Shown here: one piece after another, positions 1 through 6,991 of the stretch
How positions within the stretch are numbered: the first letter of the stretch is position 1
Layout of the letters: each line of letters starts with the position of its first letter
Source of the DNA: Pseudomonadota bacterium
GTDB taxonomy: Bacteria > Pseudomonadota > Gammaproteobacteria > Burkholderiales > Burkholderiaceae
Length of the DNA: 6,991 nt
Assembly (NCBI GenBank): GCA_021778935.1
Contig: JAJYBQ010000133.1
Span: forward strand, 1-6,991
Direction of reading: 5' to 3'
Made by a program: the position numbers and the translations under genes
Notes under the pieces: generated by a model
Told to the model about the DNA's origin: nothing
The model's database searches: none
The model's input: the letters and a program-made list of their open reading frames with translations, nothing else

Positions 1-1002
<1,002 letters not shown>

Positions 1003-1080
1003 GCTTTCGCCTTCCCATCCCTCCAAACGCGGGGGGGCGGGAGCGGCGCCGGATACTTCCCGTCGCCGCGCGTCCGCGCC

Positions 1081-1157
1081 GGGCCCATAGCTCAGTTGGT
1101 TAGAGCAGTCGACTCATAATCGATTGGTCACAGGTTCAAGTCCTGTTGGGCCCACCA
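1081..1157 (+). tRNA. tRNA with CAU anticodon, best read as tRNA-Ile2 (lysidine-modified)
   Basis: A complete 77-nt cloverleaf. The 7-bp acceptor stem is 1081-1087 with 1147-1153, followed by discriminator A1154 and an encoded CCA (1155-1157). The D arm is GCTC/GAGC. The anticodon stem is 1108-1112 with 1120-1124, its 7-base loop 1113-1119 carrying CAT at 1115-1117. The T stem is 1130-1134 with 1142-1146, with loop TTCAAGT. CAU occurs in initiator Met, elongator Met and Ile2 tRNAs. The perfectly paired position 1 rules out the initiator. The GACTCATAATCG..TTGGTC block resembles E. coli ileX rather than elongator metT, so Ile2, in which TilS converts C34 to lysidine to read AUA, is preferred. 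The gene is intact although its 3' half is repeated at 4964-5007, as expected when an element integrates into a tRNA gene and restores it. Confidence 0.93.
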
Positions 1158-1180
1158 CATCTCGCGGCCGCGCTGCTGTG

Positions 1181-1196
1181 GCCGGGCTTTCCCGGT
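1181..1196 (+). terminator. Weak hairpin downstream of the tRNA
   Basis: GCCGGG (1181-1186) pairs with CCCGGT (1191-1196) around a CTTT loop, starting 24 bp after the tRNA. Five G:C pairs plus one G:U pair are followed by a poor T run (TTGCATTGT). It could end rpoD/tRNA transcription, but it is weak as an intrinsic terminator. Confidence 0.25.
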
Positions 1197-1228
1197 TGCA
1201 TTGTCAATCCGCCATCCATAACGAAATC

Positions 1229-1266
1229 GGGGCCGCGGAAGCGGCCCCGGTGCGCCGCTTCCGCGG
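1229..1266 (-). terminator. G+C-rich inverted repeats, possible terminator of the PEP-CTERM gene
   Basis: Two alternative pairings overlap here. An 8-bp stem, GGGGCCGC (1229-1236) with GCGGCCCC (1241-1248), closes a 4-base loop. A 12-bp inverted repeat, CCGCGGAAGCGG (1233-1244) with CCGCTTCCGCGG (1255-1266), has a 10-bp spacer. Read on the - strand the 8-bp hairpin is followed by GATTTCGTTAT, a loosely T-rich tail, about 70 bp past the PEP-CTERM stop codon. A bidirectional role, also ending transcription from rpoD and the tRNA, is possible. The T tract is imperfect, so confidence is moderate. Confidence 0.4.
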
Positions 1267-1318
1267 CGTTCGCTCGTCGTCGCAGTGCCCCCGGCCATTG
1301 CCGGAGGATCATCGGGCG

Positions 1319-2020
1319 TTACATCCGGCGGCGGTAGGCGACGAAACCAAGGCTGAGCAGCGCCATCGCGAACAGCGAGACGGTGCCGGGTTCCGGGACG
1401 GAGACTTCCAGTGCCGAGGGGGCGCCATTGGCTTCGAGGTACCACAGGTTGTAGGGACCTGTCGTTCCGGCCGGAATCGTGAACGTCGTCGTGTCGACGT
1501 AGACCGGGCCGGAGGCGGCGGTGTACTGGTAGTTGCTCGCAAAAAGGCTCATCCCGTCGTCATGGGTGATCGTCAGCGTAAGCGGATTGGCCAGGGTCCC
1601 GGTGTTGCCGTTGAGGGCCAGGTCGAAGATGGTCGCGCTGCCGAAGCTCGGCGTGCTCAGGATGCTGCCGAAGCTTCCGCCGTTCATGAACGCCAAGTTG
1701 CTGATATTGGAGGGCGCGGTCCAGACGCTGTTGCTGAGGGAGGCTCCGACGAAGTTTCCGAGCGAGTTGGTCGTGCTCGCGCCGACGAACCATTGCGGCA
1801 ATCCGGCCAGGGTGAACGATGCGATCTCGTTGCTTCCCGTGACGATCGGGTTGGTGGGCAGCGCTTGTTGGTTGGAACTGCCGATGCTGCTGTTCGGCGT
1901 CAGTGCGGAATAGACGCTGACCGAGAACGTCGGCGTGCTGAGCGGGGTTGCATGCGCGGCCGCTCCGGCCATCGTCGCGGCGGCAACGGCGCTGCCCAGG
2001 CAAAGTGCTTTGAGACGCAT
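1319..2020 (-). CDS. PEP-CTERM sorting domain protein (exported surface/matrix protein)
   Basis: A 233-residue exported protein. Residues 1-24 form a Sec signal peptide (RLK, then an Ala-rich hydrophobic core, ending AHA before TP). The middle (about 25-205) is rich in Ser, Thr, Asn and Gly with almost no Lys, typical of the variable part of PEP-CTERM proteins, and gives no function. The last 26 residues are a canonical PEP-CTERM signal: VPEPGT at 208-213, a hydrophobic helix, then YRRRM. In this family an exosortase (EpsH/XrtA type) handles the C-terminal signal and the protein ends up in the outer envelope or exopolysaccharide matrix; no exosortase gene lies in this window. The ATG at 2020 is chosen because AAGGAG lies 8 nt upstream and the signal peptide starts there; a start 16 codons earlier lacks both. 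A sigma-54 promoter lies about 45 bp upstream. The cargo-like position and Ser/Thr-rich composition set it apart from the flanking backbone genes. Confidence 0.93.
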   Translation of the reverse strand: MRLKALCLGSAVAAATMAGAAAHATPLSTPTFSVSVYSALTPNSSIGSSNQQALPTNPIVTGSNEIASFTLAGLPQWFVGASTTNSLGNFVGASLSNSVWTAPSNISNLAFMNGGSFGSILSTPSFGSATIFDLALNGNTGTLANPLTLTITHDDGMSLFASNYQYTAASGPVYVDTTTFTIPAGTTGPYNLWYLEANGAPSALEVSVPEPGTVSLFAMALLSLGFVAYRRRM

Positions 2021-2063
2021 GGTTGAGACTCCTTGAATTGGGTAATGAATGCACGAAAGCAAA

Positions 2064-2080
2064 AGCAAAAAGAGTGCCAG
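2064..2080 (-). promoter_or_regulatory. Sigma-54 (RpoN) -24/-12 promoter for the PEP-CTERM gene
   Basis: On the - strand the 17 bases read CTGGCACTCTTTTTGCT. The -24 GG is at 2078-2077 and the -12 GC at 2066-2065, with exactly 10 bases between them, the required spacing. The match to YTGGCACG-N4-TTGCW fails only at the G after CAC. Transcription would start near 2054, giving a leader of about 33 nt that contains the AAGGAG ribosome site. PEP-CTERM regulons in related bacteria are known to use RpoN with the PrsK/PrsR two-component pair, so the assignment also fits the family. The PrsR binding site would lie further upstream and is not identified. Confidence 0.82.
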
Positions 2081-2292
2081 ATGTTTGTATCAAATTGATT
2101 TGCCGGTGTATTTGTCTATTTCGTCCGGCGGAGGTCCACGGCATGGGAATTGATTTGTAAAAAGTTTCGACACACGGTTTCTGCTGCGAGGCGGATTCCC
2201 CCTCGCTTTTCGCCGCGGGCGTACAGCCCTTTCCGGAGGGCGAGCGGACGGATCGTCGCCGGATGGGCCAAAGGCGAACCGGGAACTGATCA
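2081..2292. other. Upstream region of the PEP-CTERM gene, no gene recognised
   Basis: The first 80 bases or so are clearly A+T-richer than the rest of the window, as expected of a promoter-upstream region, and could hold activator sites for the sigma-54 promoter. A short hairpin, GCCCT/AGGGC around TTCCGG, lies within it near 2227-2242. Frames open here on both strands show no recognisable protein and no ribosome site, so they are not annotated as genes. Confidence 0.4.
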
Positions 2293-2385
2293 GGATGCGT
2301 CGCGCGAGCCGGATCCGGTCGAATGCCGGATTGGCGTCGATCGGCAGATCGGGGCCGGTCGGGTTGTCGCGATCGCCGATGCCGC
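2293..2385 (-). pseudogene. Displaced 93-bp fragment of the HlyD adaptor gene
   Basis: These 93 bases match 5131-5223, inside the intact HlyD adaptor gene, in the same orientation and without gaps; 87 of 93 positions are identical by hand alignment (differences at 2301, 2314, 2317, 2324, 2325 and 2341). The - strand peptide is recognisable: GIGDRDNPTGPDL is shared, followed by PIDANPAFDRIRLARRI against LIDANPVFDWVRLAQRI. The fragment covers roughly residues 278-309 of the adaptor. Homology stops sharply at both ends: at 2386 it is fused to a vapC-like remnant, and before 2293 it runs into unrelated sequence. Most differences change the amino acid, as expected for DNA no longer under selection. 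Confidence 0.85.
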
Positions 2386-2549
2386 CGACCTCTTCATATC
2401 GGCCATCACCATCAGGGAGTTGGAACTTGGCGTCTTGTCGATTGAGCGCAAGGACGCAACTCAGGGGGCATGCCGCGCTTCTGGCTGGAGCAAGCACGTC
2501 TAACCGGAGTTCTCCGGGCGTACGTTGCCCATCGATACCGCCGCGGCGC
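2386..2549 (+). pseudogene. Broken VapC-like PIN-domain toxin remnant
   Basis: In one frame the + strand reads ADLFISAITIRELELGVL, then SIERKDATQGA, then after a damaged stretch KHV, a TAA stop (2501-2503), and PEFSGRTLPIDTAAAL. This order matches the middle of VapC/FitB-type PIN-domain toxins (LFISxITIxELExGV, an ExRDP.QGA block, a WL..HVLPEFxGRxLPID block). The WL block (RFWLEQ, 2476-2493) is legible only in another frame, so there are at least two compensating frameshifts plus the stop. The N-terminus with the first catalytic Asp is missing (replaced by the hlyD fragment), and so is the C-terminal third with the remaining acidic residues; homology ends where the lipoprotein gene ends on the other strand. 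No antitoxin gene is present. In life the toxin would be a ribonuclease; this copy cannot be functional. Confidence 0.7.
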
Positions 2550-2726
2550 TTATTGGGTGTCCGCCGTCACCGTTGTGGTGGCGACGGTTGCCGCCACGCT
2601 GTTCGCGCTCCTGGCGATGGGAACCGCACCGGCGGCCGAAGCCGGCGATCGCCCCCCGCCGCACGCCGTCAGCACCAGAATCAAACCGATGCCGGGGAAA
2701 ATCAGAAACCTGTTCACTCGTGTCAT
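2550..2726 (-). CDS. Small lipoprotein, 58 residues, function unknown
   Basis: A short gene that automated minimum-length cut-offs would miss. The ATG at 2726 is preceded by AAAGGAGG with AGGAGG at 2736-2731 and a 4-nt spacer, the strongest ribosome site in the window. The product starts MTRVNRF, continues with a hydrophobic stretch (LIFPGIGLILV) and has a lipobox LTAC with Cys22 as the predicted lipidated residue, followed by GGG. The 36-residue mature part is rich in Ala, Ser, Thr and Val with no recognised fold and ends VTADTQ before TAA. Position +2 of the mature protein is Gly, not Asp, so inner-membrane retention is not indicated. It lies 35 bp downstream of the secreted-protein gene on the same strand and is probably cotranscribed. 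Its stop codon abuts the vapC remnant. Entericidin-like or anchoring roles are possible but not shown. Confidence 0.78.
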   Translation of the reverse strand: MTRVNRFLIFPGIGLILVLTACGGGRSPASAAGAVPIARSANSVAATVATTTVTADTQ

Positions 2727-2761
2727 CGCGCCTCCTTTCCACGATCCGGCGACATGGCCAT

Positions 2762-3274
2762 CTACAGCGCTTGGCAGACACCGGTCAACGCACCGGTTCT
2801 TCCGGAAGTTCCCTGGATCAGGTATGTATTTCCGGAATTTACGGGCAGCACATTGAGGCTCATCGCCGCCGTGGCGCCCGGTGGGGTGAATGTGATGGTG
2901 TACGAACCGGTAATCGGACCGGCCGCGCTCGTGAACGGAACTCCCGACTGGCTTTGCGTCGAGTAGGAGTTTCGGGTGTTCGTTGCCGCATCGCCCGCCG
3001 TGACCTGCGTGAGCGCGTAAGAGAGCGTGCTATGTGCGAAATCGATCACCGCCAACAGATTTACCCCCCTCGTGTCCCCAGGGCTCGCCAGGTAGACGAA
3101 ATTGGGGTATGTGCTTCCGCTGCTTTGGACGAGGGAGCCGAACGTGTAGTTATGCGGCACGGACAAAACCATGCCGCAACTCCCCGTCAATCCCGCCATC
3201 GCCGGGGTCGCACCGGCGAGCGCGCCGAATGCAATAAGGCCGCCCGCCAATACTCGCAACCGATTCGCTTTCAT
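2762..3274 (-). CDS. Secreted hypothetical protein, 170 residues, with a Cys pair
   Basis: I do not recognise the family. The chosen start (ATG at 3274) gives a clean Sec signal peptide: MKANRLR, a hydrophobic core (VLAGGLIAFGALAG) and an AMA cleavage site after residue 27. A purine-rich AAAGGCGG lies just upstream as ribosome site. The frame stays open for 77 codons further upstream, but that extension has no exported-protein character. The mature part (about 143 residues) is rich in Ser, Thr, Gly and Tyr with alternating short hydrophobic stretches (YTFGSLV, YPNFVYLA, GSYTITFTP, YLIQGTS), suggesting a beta-rich fold. It has exactly two cysteines, Cys33 near the mature N-terminus and Cys167 four residues from the end, well placed for one disulfide. 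It has no PEP-CTERM tail, LPXTG or lipobox. A 58-residue lipoprotein gene follows after 35 bp, and the LuxR-type regulator gene diverges from it. Periplasmic or extracellular location is inferred from the signal peptide. Confidence 0.82.
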   Translation of the reverse strand: MKANRLRVLAGGLIAFGALAGATPAMAGLTGSCGMVLSVPHNYTFGSLVQSSGSTYPNFVYLASPGDTRGVNLLAVIDFAHSTLSYALTQVTAGDAATNTRNSYSTQSQSGVPFTSAAGPITGSYTITFTPPGATAAMSLNVLPVNSGNTYLIQGTSGRTGALTGVCQAL

Positions 3275-3695
3275 TTCCCGCCTTTCTTTCCTTGTCGATG
3301 ATTCGAGCCTTCGATGGCGCAAGCCGACCCCGTAGATCGCATCGCAGAAGTCCCGTGAACAGGTGATGGTCGCGCCTTGGAACGGGAGGTTACGAAAATC
3401 GCGAATAACGCGCCTCTCCCAAATGGGAGGGAAACTCCGCAAGGGCACTACGGTTTGGCCGTAGGGGTTGTCGGGACAGCTCCCGAGAGTTAGAGTCTTT
3501 CGCATGTGGCGGCGCCGTGTCGGTCTTCAGCGAAGCGACCGGCCACTGAGGCAGAGGAACTTCGTCGATGGGTCCCGACATCGATCGCGAGGGGAAACGG
3601 ATCGGTAGCCGCTACACAGCGGCACCGGATGCGCAGCGCGGCATGCGCACGATCGGCGACCGCCTCGCGCCGCTTGCGCCGGGAGCCCGATCGCA
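3275..3695. promoter_or_regulatory. Divergent intergenic region with two hairpins
   Basis: This 421-bp gap separates the secreted-protein gene (- strand) from the LuxR-type regulator gene (+ strand) and must carry promoters for both. Two hairpins stand out. One has seven pairs (one G:U), 3414-3420 with 3425-3431, loop AAAT. The other has six pairs, CTACGG (3448-3453) with CCGTAG (3459-3464), loop TTTGG. They are 16 bp apart and could be operators or part of an RNA leader. A scan for sigma-54 sites upstream of the secreted-protein gene found none with a TTGC -12 element. No further gene is supported. Confidence 0.45.
3468..3496 (+). promoter_or_regulatory. Candidate sigma-70 promoter for the LuxR-type regulator
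   Basis: TTGTCG (3468-3473) and TAGAGT (3491-3496) are separated by exactly 17 bp, each matching the -35 and -10 consensus at 4 of 6 positions. Transcription would start near 3503, leaving a leader of about 190 nt before the ATG at 3696. It lies immediately after the second hairpin. In G+C-rich DNA such matches also occur by chance. Confidence 0.25.
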
Positions 3696-4934
3696 ATGAC
3701 GTCCCAGGCCGATCTCGACGGGGAACTCATCGGGCGCATCTACGCGGCAGCCGGCGACGCATCCCGGATCCCCGAACTGGCGCTGGACCTCGCGCACGCA
3801 TTCGACAGCAGCAGTTGCATCGTGTACTTCCGACGCAAGCACGCAGCGCCGATACCGCAAATGCCGGAGGTCACGGGGGTTCTTTCGGCCACCGGGAACA
3901 TCGACGACCAGGCTTGCGCGGCGTACGCAACCCACTATGGCGAACGCGACGAGTGGTACCAGCGCGGCTGGAAGCGGCCATCGCCTCAGGTGGTGCTGGG
4001 TGAGGAACTGATCAGCACGAACGAGGTGTTGCGCACGGAGTGGTCGGACTGGCTACACACGACGGGATGCCTCCATGTCCTCGGGGTGCAGTTTCCGATC
4101 GAAGGAAACGTGTTCGGCGCGCTCGGAATCCATCGCACGCGCGCCGAGGGCCCCTTGGAGGAAGCCGACCGTCAGCGCATGATCCGGCTGCTTCCCCACC
4201 TTCAGCGTGCGATGCGCATTCGCGAACGGCTACGCACCGCGGAACAGGCGGCTGGGGTCGCCGGCAGCGCTGCGGGGCGGATGGGGGTGGGAATCATCGT
4301 CGTCGATGCGGAGCGCCGCATCTATTTCGTCAATCCCGTCGCGGAACGAACGGTCCGTAGCGGAGGCGGACTGCGGATTGCCGGTGGACGCCTCGCGGCG
4401 CTCGCCGCCGTCGACGAGGCCGTCTTTTCCCGCGCCGTCCGGCACGCCAGCGGGAGCGCTGCGCCCGCCGCACAAGGACCTTCTCCCCCGCGCGGTGCGA
4501 CGCTGCATCTGTCGATGCGTGGCGGTGCCAAACTGGCCGTGATGATTGCGCCGCTCGCGGCAAATGCGCTGCGTTACGGCTGCATCGGACCCGCTTGCGC
4601 CGTCATCTTTTCCGATCCGGCAAGCCACGCCCCCGACCTGCCGCCCCAGGTGCTCGCCGCGCGCTATGGCCTGACTCCGGCGCAGGCCCGGCTGCTGTCG
4701 GCGCTCGTCCGTGGCGAAACCCTTGCCGACTACGCGGCGCGCACGGGCGTCGGCATTGGCACCATACGCAGCCATCTCAAGGACTTGACTGCCCGCACCG
4801 GACAGCGGCGGCAGGCTGATCTCGTGCGGATGGCGCTTTCCGATCCGTTGTTGCGCCTGCAGGCTGGTGGGGCGGCCGAAGGGGTTTCTCCGCCCGCCGT
4901 CTCGCTTCGGGAGCCGGAAGCTCCCGCCCAATGA
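3696..4934 (+). CDS. LuxR-type (helix-turn-helix) transcriptional regulator
   Basis: A 412-residue DNA-binding regulator. The C-terminal LuxR/GerE-type helix-turn-helix is at about residues 326-380: LTPAQARLLSALVRGETLAD, AARTGVGIGTIRSHLKDL, then TARTGQRRQADLVRMAL. The TGQRRQADLV ending is typical of a proteobacterial subgroup in which a long N-terminal sensor region precedes the HTH. Residues 1-200 (with DEWYQRGWKRP and GEELISTNEVLRTEWSDWL) resemble that subgroup's conserved but functionally undefined region, and about 203-225 (GIIVVDAERRIYFVNPVAER) reads like the start of a PAS domain. It lacks the acyl-homoserine-lactone-binding motif set of LuxR/LasR and the receiver Asp of NarL proteins, so the signal is unknown. 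Only a weak GGGAG lies 10 nt before the ATG. The stop overlaps the ATG of a truncated second frame (ATGA at 4931-4934). Divergent from a secreted-protein/lipoprotein pair, which is its most likely target by position. Confidence 0.88.
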   Translation: MTSQADLDGELIGRIYAAAGDASRIPELALDLAHAFDSSSCIVYFRRKHAAPIPQMPEVTGVLSATGNIDDQACAAYATHYGERDEWYQRGWKRPSPQVVLGEELISTNEVLRTEWSDWLHTTGCLHVLGVQFPIEGNVFGALGIHRTRAEGPLEEADRQRMIRLLPHLQRAMRIRERLRTAEQAAGVAGSAAGRMGVGIIVVDAERRIYFVNPVAERTVRSGGGLRIAGGRLAALAAVDEAVFSRAVRHASGSAAPAAQGPSPPRGATLHLSMRGGAKLAVMIAPLAANALRYGCIGPACAVIFSDPASHAPDLPPQVLAARYGLTPAQARLLSALVRGETLADYAARTGVGIGTIRSHLKDLTARTGQRRQADLVRMALSDPLLRLQAGGAAEGVSPPAVSLREPEAPAQ

Positions 4935-4957
4935 CGCAGCACGATCTCGACGGGGAC
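4931..4957 (+). pseudogene. First codons of a lost second regulator gene
   Basis: The ATG overlaps the stop of the preceding regulator (ATGA). The next bases repeat that gene's own start: ATGACG, then CAG..CGATCTCGACGGGGA, differing by one missing codon (TCC) and two substitutions over 29 bases. A 15-base identity lies at 3710-3724 and 4942-4956. The peptides are MTSQADLDGE and MTQHDLDGD. Homology stops near 4957, seven bases before the tRNA-like repeat. The frame continues for about 400 codons, but only as the antisense of the HlyD and DUF1656 genes. This is best read as the 5' stub of a tandem paralogue whose body was deleted at the island edge. Confidence 0.65.
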
Positions 4958-4963
4958 ACGCGT

Positions 4964-5007
4964 TCGTTTGGTCCCCGGTTCAAGTTACGTCCCGTTGGGC
5001 CCACCAC
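4964..5007 (+). repeat. Degenerate copy of the tRNA-Ile 3' half (probable attR)
   Basis: The stretch aligns with 1120-1158 of the tRNA gene: TCG.TTGGTC (4964-4973), three bases with two differences, GGTTCAAGT (4977-4985, identical), a 5-base insertion TACGT (4986-4990), then CC.GTTGGGCCCACCAC (4991-5007, 16 of 17 identical, including CCA). Homology begins at the 3' strand of the anticodon stem, where tRNA-type integrases commonly recombine. There is no tRNA 5' half here and the T arm is disrupted, so this is not a working tRNA. The right-hand part also encodes the last residues of the HlyD adaptor on the other strand. Confidence 0.75.
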
Positions 5008-6055
5008 GGCAAACCGACGCTCCGGCTGCGTTCCCCGCAGTTCCTCCGTGCGGCAGGATGGTCACCGTCGCGCTCATCCCGGCGCTGAGCGGGAGATCCG
5101 CGGGCTGGCTGTCGATATGGATGCGGACCGGGATGCGTTGCGCGAGCCGGACCCAGTCGAACACCGGATTGGCGTCGATCAGCAGATCGGGGCCGGTCGG
5201 GTTGTCGCGATCGCCGATGCCGCGGGCGATCGCCTCCACGGTTCCCGCCAGGCAGCGCGGATCGGAGAGCAGGCGGATCCGGGCGCGATCGCCGGGGTGG
5301 ATGTCGGTGAGTTTGCTTTCCTCGAAATAGCCGTAAAGGTAGTAGCTGTGGCGGTCGATCAGCGCCAGCACGGGCTGGCCGACGTGCACGTAGTCGCCGG
5401 GGCGCAGCAGCAGGTTGGTGACGAAGCCGTCGACGGGCGCGCGGATCTCGGTGCGCTGCAGATCCAGTTGCGCCAGTTGGAGCGCGGTGCGTGCGAGATC
5501 GCGTCGGGCGATCGCGCGGGCAGTGTCGGCGCGCGCCTGAGCGAGCCGGGATTGCGCGAGGTGCCAGGCGTTGCGCGCCATCGCGGCGGCGGCATCGGCA
5601 TCGTCGACCTCTTCGCGCGAGGTGGCGCCGTAGCCGCCTGCGAATCGGCGGCGCCGGGCCCGGTCTTCCTCCATCTGCATCGCCGTGCGGGCTTTGGCGA
5701 GATTTTCCTGGCGTTCGCGGACCTGCGCCCGCGCCGACTGCAGAGCGGCCTGCGCCATGGCGAGACGCGCCGCGGCCGTATCGGCGGCGTTGTGGAAGCG
5801 CGCGGCATCGACCGTGAACAGCAGGTCGCCGCGGCGCACCGGTTGGTTGTCGCGCACCGGCACGGTGTCGACCAGCCCTCCGACGTCGGGGGCGATGTGG
5901 ATGACGTCGGCGCGTACGCGCGCGTCGCGTGTCCAGGGCGTGTCGGCCTCGTGGGTCCAGAGGATGCGGGCCAGCAGTGCGGCGAGGACCAGTGCGGCAA
6001 CGGTCAACGCAATGCGTCCCAGGGGAAGTGCGCGCAGGGTGTGGGGAAGTTTCAT
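4985..6055 (-). CDS. HlyD/EmrA-type periplasmic adaptor of an efflux system
   Basis: A 356-residue membrane-fusion protein that bridges an inner-membrane pump to an outer-membrane channel, of the AaeA/EmrA type. Residues about 11-33 form one N-terminal transmembrane helix. The first half of the lipoyl-like domain is at about 45-85 (VIHIAPDVGGLVDTVPVRDN, then QPVRRGDLLFTVD). A long Ala/Arg/Gln-rich alpha-helical hairpin spans about 87-200, and the second half of the lipoyl-like domain follows at about 203-235 (TEIRAPVDGFVTNLLLRPGD). A beta-barrel part has YYLYGYFEESKL and IHPGDRARI, and PLSAGMSATVTILP ends the fold at about 322-335. The start at 6055 is chosen because it overlaps the DUF1656 stop (ATGA), typical of a translationally coupled operon, and places the membrane helix correctly. 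The last residues (GGPNGT) are read through the tRNA-like repeat, so the C-terminal tail may have been altered by the island. Likely substrates, by analogy with AaeAB or fusaric acid systems, are aromatic acids. Confidence 0.93.
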   Translation of the reverse strand: MKLPHTLRALPLGRIALTVAALVLAALLARILWTHEADTPWTRDARVRADVIHIAPDVGGLVDTVPVRDNQPVRRGDLLFTVDAARFHNAADTAAARLAMAQAALQSARAQVRERQENLAKARTAMQMEEDRARRRRFAGGYGATSREEVDDADAAAAMARNAWHLAQSRLAQARADTARAIARRDLARTALQLAQLDLQRTEIRAPVDGFVTNLLLRPGDYVHVGQPVLALIDRHSYYLYGYFEESKLTDIHPGDRARIRLLSDPRCLAGTVEAIARGIGDRDNPTGPDLLIDANPVFDWVRLAQRIPVRIHIDSQPADLPLSAGMSATVTILPHGGTAGNAAGASVCRGGPNGT

Positions 6056-6261
6056 GGCAGGACATGGCGCGATGCGAGCGCCAGGACACAAAAGAGGATG
6101 AGGAACAGGCTCAGTCGGAACAGCGATGGATGCCATACGCGGCGGTATACGGCATACCGGACCAGCACCTGATCGAGGACCGACCACAAGGCGGCGCTGA
6201 CGACGAGCAGCGCCAGGACGCCCGGAACCAGCACGCCGGTGAAGTCAAATTCGCGATGCAT
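6052..6261 (-). CDS. DUF1656 (AaeX-like) small inner-membrane protein
   Basis: A 69-residue protein with two predicted transmembrane helices (about residues 9-28 and 49-64) around a basic loop (VRYAVYRRVWHPSLFR). The opening MHREFDFTGVLVP and the VYRRVWHPSLFRL stretch are characteristic of DUF1656 proteins, which nearly always lie between or beside FUSC and HlyD genes in AaeXAB-type efflux operons; their exact role is unknown. The start at 6261 lies 17 bp inside the end of the FUSC gene, and the stop overlaps the adaptor ATG by ATGA. A longer upstream frame exists but only as a shadow of the FUSC gene. Confidence 0.93.
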   Translation of the reverse strand: MHREFDFTGVLVPGVLALLVVSAALWSVLDQVLVRYAVYRRVWHPSLFRLSLFLILFCVLALASRHVLP

Positions 6262-6991
6262 GGGACACCGGGGCGAGAGGCGTGCGCGCGAAGATCGGCG
6301 CGCGGGGGTCCTGCAGCGCGATGCGCAGTTGCAGGAGGTGCGCCCGCAATGGCGCCGGAGGGGTCGCGTCGAGGGCACGGGCGATGGCATCGAGGGCGGC
6401 TTGCCGGTCGGGTGTCGCGCTGCGGAAGAGCGCGGCCACGGCGCCGACGACCGCATCGCAGCGGATCCGCACCGCGGCCGGGGGAGCATGGTCGCGCAGG
6501 TCCTGCCGCAGTTCGATCAGCGCACGCGCGATTTCCTGCGTCACCAGCGACCACGAGACGATGCGGTCCACCTGATGGCCGCCGGTCGCGGTCTGTCGCA
6601 GCAATTGGCTCAGCAGGTCGCGGTGCACGCTCTCGAATCGGGACGCCAGGCCGTCGAGCGGGGCGCTCGCGGCAAGGTCGACCGTCGCGCGCAGGCGGGC
6701 CAGCGCCCGCCGCATCGATCCGCGGACCGGCAGCAGGGCGAAGCCCAGCACCGCGGCGAGCAGGCCGACGATCTCCGCGACGGCGCCATTGAAGAGACCG
6801 ATTGTCGATAGGCGCATGGGATTGTTGATCTGCAGATTGAGGAACATGCCGAGCATCGCACCCATGCCCACGCCGGCCCACCGGGGCCGGGTCCCGAGGT
6901 AGAACAGCACGGCCAGCAGCGGCAGGGTGACGGCAACCAGACCGGGGAAGCCGCCGCCGGGGAGCAGGGCGGCCACGACGATGGCGAGCAC
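6245..6991 (-). CDS. FUSC-family (AaeB-like) inner-membrane efflux component, C-terminal part
   Basis: The last 248 residues of a protein whose 5' end lies beyond base 6991; family members usually have about 650-750 residues. The visible part starts within the second membrane region, with hydrophobic helices at about residues 1-32 (IVVAALLPGGGFPGLVAVTL, PLLAVLFYLG), 38-55 (WAGVGMGAMLGMFLNLQI) and 63-88 (STIGLFNGAVAEIVGLLAAV). The rest is a soluble, helical, Arg/Ala/Leu-rich region ending RTPLAPVSHASRI, which fits the cytoplasmic C-terminal domain of this family. With the downstream DUF1656 and HlyD genes it forms a three-gene overlapping operon. AaeB relatives export p-hydroxybenzoate-like acids and FUSC relatives give fusaric acid resistance; the substrate here is unknown. 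The first ATG in view is probably internal. Confidence 0.88.
   Translation of the reverse strand: MLAIVVAALLPGGGFPGLVAVTLPLLAVLFYLGTRPRWAGVGMGAMLGMFLNLQINNPMRLSTIGLFNGAVAEIVGLLAAVLGFALLPVRGSMRRALARLRATVDLAASAPLDGLASRFESVHRDLLSQLLRQTATGGHQVDRIVSWSLVTQEIARALIELRQDLRDHAPPAAVRIRCDAVVGAVAALFRSATPDRQAALDAIARALDATPPAPLRAHLLQLRIALQDPRAPIFARTPLAPVSHASRI

Follow-up and report, generated by a model that had tools for sequence, protein, structure and literature searches.

A small island in the rpoD-linked tRNA-Ile2(CAU) gene of a Burkholderiaceae bacterium, the probable remnant of a mobile element

The closest described systems are tRNA-integrated genomic islands of the tyrosine-recombinase type, which comprise an intact tRNA gene at one end, a repeated tRNA 3' half at the other end and accessory cargo, and for which relatives with an empty site are found. 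As stated in the account of a review (PMC8371274), integration into a tRNA gene rebuilds an intact tRNA gene. An exception, in the description given by PMC10865867, is tRNA-dependent lysogeny, in which the core is short (about 10 bp) and the phage carries a tRNA of matching isotype; a Lactobacillus prophage is also named in the discussion there. The replacement of a disrupted tRNA by the tRNA of the element is furthermore reported in PMC11476347 for phage-related sequences of Sinorhizobium meliloti, genomic islands included, and satellites in tRNA-Ile2 are already known from the description in PMC10111431. For plasmid-type elements that split and replace a tRNA, no report was found in a limited literature search.

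The island described here shares with the tRNA-integrated islands the intact tRNA at one end, the tRNA 3' half at the other end, the empty-site relatives and the accessory cargo. It differs from them in that no recombinase was found, in its mosaic content including a scrap of a backbone gene, and in a repeat that doubles as the end of the neighboring hlyD gene. It represents a clean example of the decay of a small tRNA island in an environmental bacterium, for which empty-site relatives prove the insertion. The general interest, however, lies more in the neighbors found at the same tRNA site than in this island itself.

The tRNA gene, its repeated 3' half and the empty site

The window, i.e. 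the whole stretch of 6,991 nucleotides that was analysed, comprises the following features at and outside the ends of the island:

1..1002, plus strand: 3' part of rpoD (a name we assume from its translation), chromosomal backbone left of the island, conserved in L002, L003 and GJ-E10
1081..1157, plus strand: intact tRNA-Ile2(CAU) gene, attL-like left island end (ARAGORN and Rfam)
1159..4963, no strand: island DNA of 3805 bp, absent from the empty-site relatives L002 and L003
4964..5007, plus strand: decayed repeat of the tRNA 3' half, attR-like (35/39 identity plus 5-base insertion)
4985..6055, minus strand: hlyD-type efflux adaptor gene (PF13437), backbone right of the island

The calling of tRNA genes in the window gave a single gene, that at 1081-1157. 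While ARAGORN labeled it tRNA-Met from its CAT anticodon, we take it to be tRNA-Ile2(CAU), judged from the features of E. coli tRNA-Ile2; the tRNA-Ile of the initial annotation is right in this sense. Local alignment of 1081-1160 with 4941-5030 paired 1120-1158 with 4964-5007, with 35 of 39 positions identical, four substitutions and one insertion of five bases in the T arm, just as the recurrence of the 3' half had been claimed. The alignment score of 24 lies far above chance, compared to at most 9 elsewhere in the window and at most 13 when both strands of 200 Markov sequences, each of 7 kb, were searched, which rules out a chance origin of the repeat. A dispersed repeat unrelated to this tRNA, named beforehand as a finding that would speak against integration, is ruled out in all four genomes searched (G001, G002, G003 and GJ-E10): the five matches of 4950-5012 were exclusively the segment itself and the rpoD-linked tRNA. 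The repeat in the window starts 7-8 bases after the repeat start in two elements described below (G038 and GJ-E10), a difference for which decay and original absence of these bases would look alike.

A scan with the window HlyD protein yielded 15 loci. Three of them, located in the metagenome-assembled genomes YS1.bin28 (G001, locus L001), WY1.bin9 (G002, L002) and WY3.bin64 (G003, L003), encode HlyD proteins with 100%, 91% and 90% identity to that of the window, and the remaining 12 showed an identity of at most 61%. In L002, window 1-1158 (94.1% identical) was found at 12217-11061 and window 4964-6988 at 11099-9068. The same two pieces overlap in a like manner in L003 (94.9% identical over 1-1158), and the overlap corresponds to the tRNA 3' half. 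Since the pieces overlap, rpoD, tRNA and hlyD are contiguous in these genomes, which is an exact empty site for a tRNA-integrated island. Accordingly, both close relatives with HlyD identities of 90-91% (2/2) carry an uninterrupted rpoD-tRNA-hlyD junction without a counterpart to 1159-4963 between the flanks. In Burkholderiales bacterium GJ-E10 (G024), a cultured iron oxidiser of acidic river origin, which showed 96.7% identity over window 1-1121, the native tRNA 3' half joins hlyD directly, here at the right end of a different, integrase-bearing element of 19.7 kb. The uninserted relative predicted by the initial annotation, with rpoD, tRNA and the end of hlyD adjoining, was thus found. The claimed integration into the tRNA gene is likewise supported by the empty sites, whereby a site-specific recombinase would be the presumed agent. 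A splitting and replacement of the host tRNA, as in tRNA-dependent integration, was not observed in the window, where the tRNA is intact and base-for-base identical to the whole tRNA of the empty-site relative L003.

The hlyD frames of L002 and L003 end inside the tRNA 3' end, antisense to the tRNA, so that tRNA and hlyD overlap. In the window, the right repeat copy from 4985 on forms the last codons and the stop of hlyD on the minus strand. Within the hlyD frame (4989-5007) one of 19 positions is changed, compared to three of 20 outside of it (4964-4983), and the 5-base insertion lies between these segments. With the insertion, the hlyD stop occupies the codon of the tRNA-encoded tail at which the L003 frame ends as well (tails ...GGPNGT and ...GGPNRT). 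Probably, the decayed right copy has been kept because hlyD ends within the tRNA. This suggests that a displaced tRNA half may persist where a neighboring gene ends in it.

Island content and the hlyD scrap

Inside the island, the following features were determined:

1319..2020, minus strand: PEP-CTERM exported protein gene, 233 aa, open frame (PF07589, 22.5 bits, cut-off 20.7)
2288..2385, minus strand: hlyD scrap of 98 bp, 92% identical to window hlyD 5126-5223, best part 2295-2385
2380..2547, plus strand: internal piece of a vapC toxin gene (80.5% over 168 bp)
2540..4862, no strand: module homologous to the GJ-E10 chromosome near 1.399-1.401 Mb (collinear blastn blocks, 67-79%)
2762..3274, minus strand: predicted exported protein of about 170 aa, with an 81% identical protein in GJ-E10
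3696..4934, plus strand: LuxR-type regulator, 412 aa, with a 60% identical full-length relative in GJ-E10
4929..4956, plus strand: start of a second luxR-like gene, cut at the right junction, matching 3694-3724 with one 3-base gap

The island is a mosaic: next to a PEP-CTERM gene and the module of LuxR-type regulator and exported protein, it comprises scraps of hlyD and of a plasmid-type vapC as well as the start of a second luxR. Its content had been described as eroded, which holds true for the scraps of vapC, hlyD and the second luxR; the frames of the PEP-CTERM protein, the exported protein and the LuxR-type regulator are open. In line with the initial annotation, no integrase was detected in the island, neither by Pfam on the main frames nor, as a hidden one, by tblastn with the GJ-E10 integrase. 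At an E-value of 1e-3, matches to the island were obtained in 7 of 67 family genomes, but extended ones only in the conspecific G001 and, elsewhere on the chromosome, in GJ-E10.

The vapC piece, which is cut at both ends and comprises a stop in frame, corresponds to a portion of a gene that measures 429 bp and belongs to a toxin-antitoxin pair. Over 168 bp it shares 80.5% identity with the vapC genes carried by plasmids of the acidophile Acidithiobacillus ferrooxidans, and it matches 5 of 72,556 plasmid records. The alignment ends overlap by 6 bases between hlyD and vapC and by 8 bases between vapC and the module. Because of these overlaps, it is suggested that the pieces may have been joined at short homologies.

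The module comprises a small upstream region, the exported protein and the LuxR-type regulator. No Pfam family exceeded its cut-off for the exported protein, and the regulator showed no Pfam match at an E-value of 1, so its type name was taken from the names of its relatives. The regulator has matches at 1e-3 in 7 of the 67 family genomes, at full length only in G001 and GJ-E10. The match of the second luxR start to 3694-3724 scored 21, compared to a top score of 16 in 1000 shuffles, and it ends 7 bases before the right repeat copy. In GJ-E10, the module lies between a thioredoxin-like and a DUF748/AsmA-like gene, as we name these neighbors from their translations. In G001 (C143 near 6300-10760, L187), a thioredoxin-like gene (83% identical) is directly followed by a DUF748-like gene without the module. 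Since the DUF748-like proteins of G001 and GJ-E10 are only 28% identical, the orthology of this neighbor is unproven. Judged from these positions, the module would have been moved or gained separately.

Of the 98 positions of the hlyD scrap, 8 deviate from the window hlyD (6 of 91 if counted from 2295), and all of these differences are private to the scrap in a comparison with L002, L003 and GJ-E10. Seven of the eight are located at codon positions 1 or 2, which indicates a copy free of selection. At 2294 and 2341, the window hlyD alone differs from all three relatives, and the scrap shares the window state at both positions. The scrap is a copy of the window lineage's own hlyD. Since both shared states are derived on the window's branch, the scrap most likely arose after the split from GJ-E10. 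The divergence of hlyD at fourfold sites amounts to 14.1% to GJ-E10 and 20.5% to L003, so that the copy may be nearly as old as the GJ-E10 split. All eight differences between scrap and gene are transitions.

Origin of the island

The island is a lineage-specific insertion in the 3' half of the rpoD-linked tRNA-Ile2(CAU), and we assume, with a probability of roughly 0.68, that it represents what remains of a mobile element, perhaps of plasmid origin, whose integration was due to a tyrosine recombinase. A recombinase of this type would have integrated the element at the tRNA, whereby a working tRNA was left on the left side and the original 3' half was moved to the right, where it would have stayed since hlyD ends in it. 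Later, the recombinase and mobility genes would have been lost, and internal rearrangement would have produced the present mosaic of cargo (the PEP-CTERM protein and the LuxR-type regulator with the exported protein, whatever benefit these might bring) and scraps of vapC, hlyD and the second luxR. This reading is based on the repeat above chance that is confined to this tRNA, the exact empty site, the native junction at the right end of the GJ-E10 element, the integrase elements at the same tRNA (see below), the plasmid-like vapC scrap, the lack of the LuxR module in G001 at its GJ-E10 position and the agreement of G001, as a second assembly, with the window to within 3 bases.

Several observations speak against it. 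No relative of an integrase was found in the window by Pfam on the main frames or by tblastn with the GJ-E10 integrase, and the repeat shows no clear extension into the anticodon loop, the point from which the repeats of G038 and GJ-E10 run. Moreover, simple site-specific integration would not lead one to expect an internal scrap of hlyD from the same lineage, and the right edge is a truncated luxR start and no recognizable element end. A tyrosine recombinase gene or its remains, neither of which was detected in the island, would be expected of a working element but not of a remnant; since none was found, the island is classed only as the remnant of a tRNA-integrated island.

The main rival explanation is a Campbell-type insertion or a tandem duplication, i.e. 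the homologous recombination of a circle or a duplicated segment reaching from the tRNA 3' half to hlyD. The product would show the order tRNA, hlyD scrap, cargo, tRNA 3' half and hlyD, and the PEP-CTERM gene would have been inserted later between tRNA and scrap. In its order and orientation towards the tRNA, the hlyD scrap indeed matches the genuine hlyD; it derives from the lineage's own gene, and its divergence (8/98) is about the size of the repeat decay (4/39 plus the insertion). A tandem in which a tRNA-Ile2 satellite takes part is also tentatively put down to homologous recombination in PMC10111431. However, the spacer of about 118 bp between tRNA and hlyD left no convincing trace in 1159-2294 (score 24.5, reached by 13 of 300 shuffles), and the tRNA site is otherwise used by integrase elements. 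Altogether, this course of events is considered rather unlikely.

Far less probable is an ancestral occupied state, from which recombination between the repeats would have removed the island precisely in the relatives. Direct repeats allow the precise loss of the intervening DNA, and such repeats are present here; yet the native 3' half is joined to hlyD in three relatives (L002, L003 and the right junction of GJ-E10), and two states that are derived on the branch of the window are present in the hlyD scrap. An assembly artefact, in which the halves were misjoined near 2652-2778 or island DNA between them collapsed, is regarded as similarly improbable. It is suggested by G001, where the sequence is broken at this place and the ends of the two contigs have exactly 127 bp in common (window 2652-2778), which points to a branching assembly graph. 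Against a misjoin, both contigs were binned together and match the window to within 3 bases, and either half alone shows an occupied tRNA. The branch nevertheless is the main technical doubt on the island, since DNA between the halves, including a lost integrase, could be missing from the assembly of the window.

Other elements at the rpoD-linked tRNA

The rpoD-linked tRNA-Ile2 is a docking site reused by mobile elements. The integrase-bearing islands predicted for this tRNA in related genomes were found in GJ-E10, in G184 and on contig C90 of G038. The integrase search covered 21 of the 67 family genomes, namely those with rpoD and the tRNA close together among the matches listed, plus G001 to G003. 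An integrase above the cut-off within about 1.2 kb downstream of the tRNA was present in 2 of the 21 genomes (GJ-E10 and G038), while G050 showed a match below the cut-off about 0.9 kb downstream. In 11 of the 21, a strong PF00589 match lies on the rpoD contig at a distance of about 7-8 kb on the far side of rpoD; these matches, presumably the backbone genes xerC or xerD, were left out of the integrase count. No tRNA 3' repeat was found downstream of the tRNA within 9.0 kb in G050, 5.1 kb in G067 and 4.6 kb in G049.

The element on contig C90 of G038 (L132) measures 3.6 kb and carries an integrase as well as an HTH_17 gene, the latter with an AlpA match just under the cut-off. It shares with the window island the rpoD-linked tRNA-Ile2, a similar size and a repeat of the tRNA 3' half, but differs by the integrase, the HTH_17 gene and perfect direct repeats of 46 bp, which reach from the anticodon loop to one base past CCA.

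In GJ-E10 (C1:1925003-1944743; L064, L065), the 19.7-kb element splits the native tRNA-Ile2 in the anticodon loop, and the split halves share the 10-base core ACTCATAATC. A whole tRNA(CAU) lies just inside the left end of the element, followed by a tyrosine integrase, and among the element genes scanned, matches to the TrfA and TrbL families exceeded the cut-offs. Three of the 43 tRNAs of GJ-E10 comprise a CAT anticodon. Since the other two resemble initiator and elongator tRNA-Met, as we assume, the copy in the element would be the only tRNA-Ile2 of the genome.

The second element of this type was found through relatives of the integrase, for which matches at 1e-40 were obtained in 67 of 399 genomes of the order. 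The 19.1-kb element of G184 (G184:C4:156540-175680; L166-L167) shows the same arrangement, with split halves at C4:156571 and 175636, and its integrase is 82-83% identical to that of the GJ-E10 element. Among its scanned genes, a relaxase-like match narrowly missed the Pfam cut-off. Apart from the left 2.5 kb and the tRNA halves, its DNA showed no similarity to that of the GJ-E10 element. The genome of G184 has three further exact matches to CTCATAATC, and no tRNA was called around these three.

Both elements show the marks of tRNA-dependent integration, i.e. a short core, no rebuilt tRNA and an element tRNA of the same isotype. With the window island they share the target tRNA, but like the phages of tRNA-dependent lysogeny in the description of PMC10865867 they interrupt the tRNA at a core of 10 bp and carry a complete tRNA with them, whereas the window tRNA is intact. 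Their arrangement thus resembles the phage mechanism, while the GJ-E10 element carries plasmid-type genes. We lean somewhat towards the view that two modes of integration exist at the betaproteobacterial rpoD-linked tRNA-Ile2: one in which the tRNA is rebuilt, as in G038 and probably by the lost element of the window, and one in which it is destroyed and supplied by plasmid-type elements, as in GJ-E10 and probably G184, with the host depending on the element for AUA codons from then on. If true, tRNA-dependent integration would be carried out by conjugative or mobilizable elements rather than phages. The two elements seem to hold an essential tRNA hostage, and this would widen a mechanism known from phages and phage-related sequences.

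Among 30 examined loci with relatives of the GJ-E10 integrase (L136-L165), a split tRNA before a whole one was found for GJ-E10 and G184 only, and the splitting habit therefore appears limited to this closest pair seen. The other loci adjoin an intact tRNA (Leu, Lys, Thr, Arg or Asn; CAU in L140 and L159) or comprise none within the locus. In L140 (G311), a 68-69% identical integrase adjoins an intact CTCATAATC-type tRNA(CAU), which may thus be a tRNA of this kind that is occupied by a further element.

In G049 (C86; L135:2166-2199), a 34-base fragment of the tRNA 3' end with 85% identity was observed between rpoD and the intact tRNA, which is perhaps the trace of another event.
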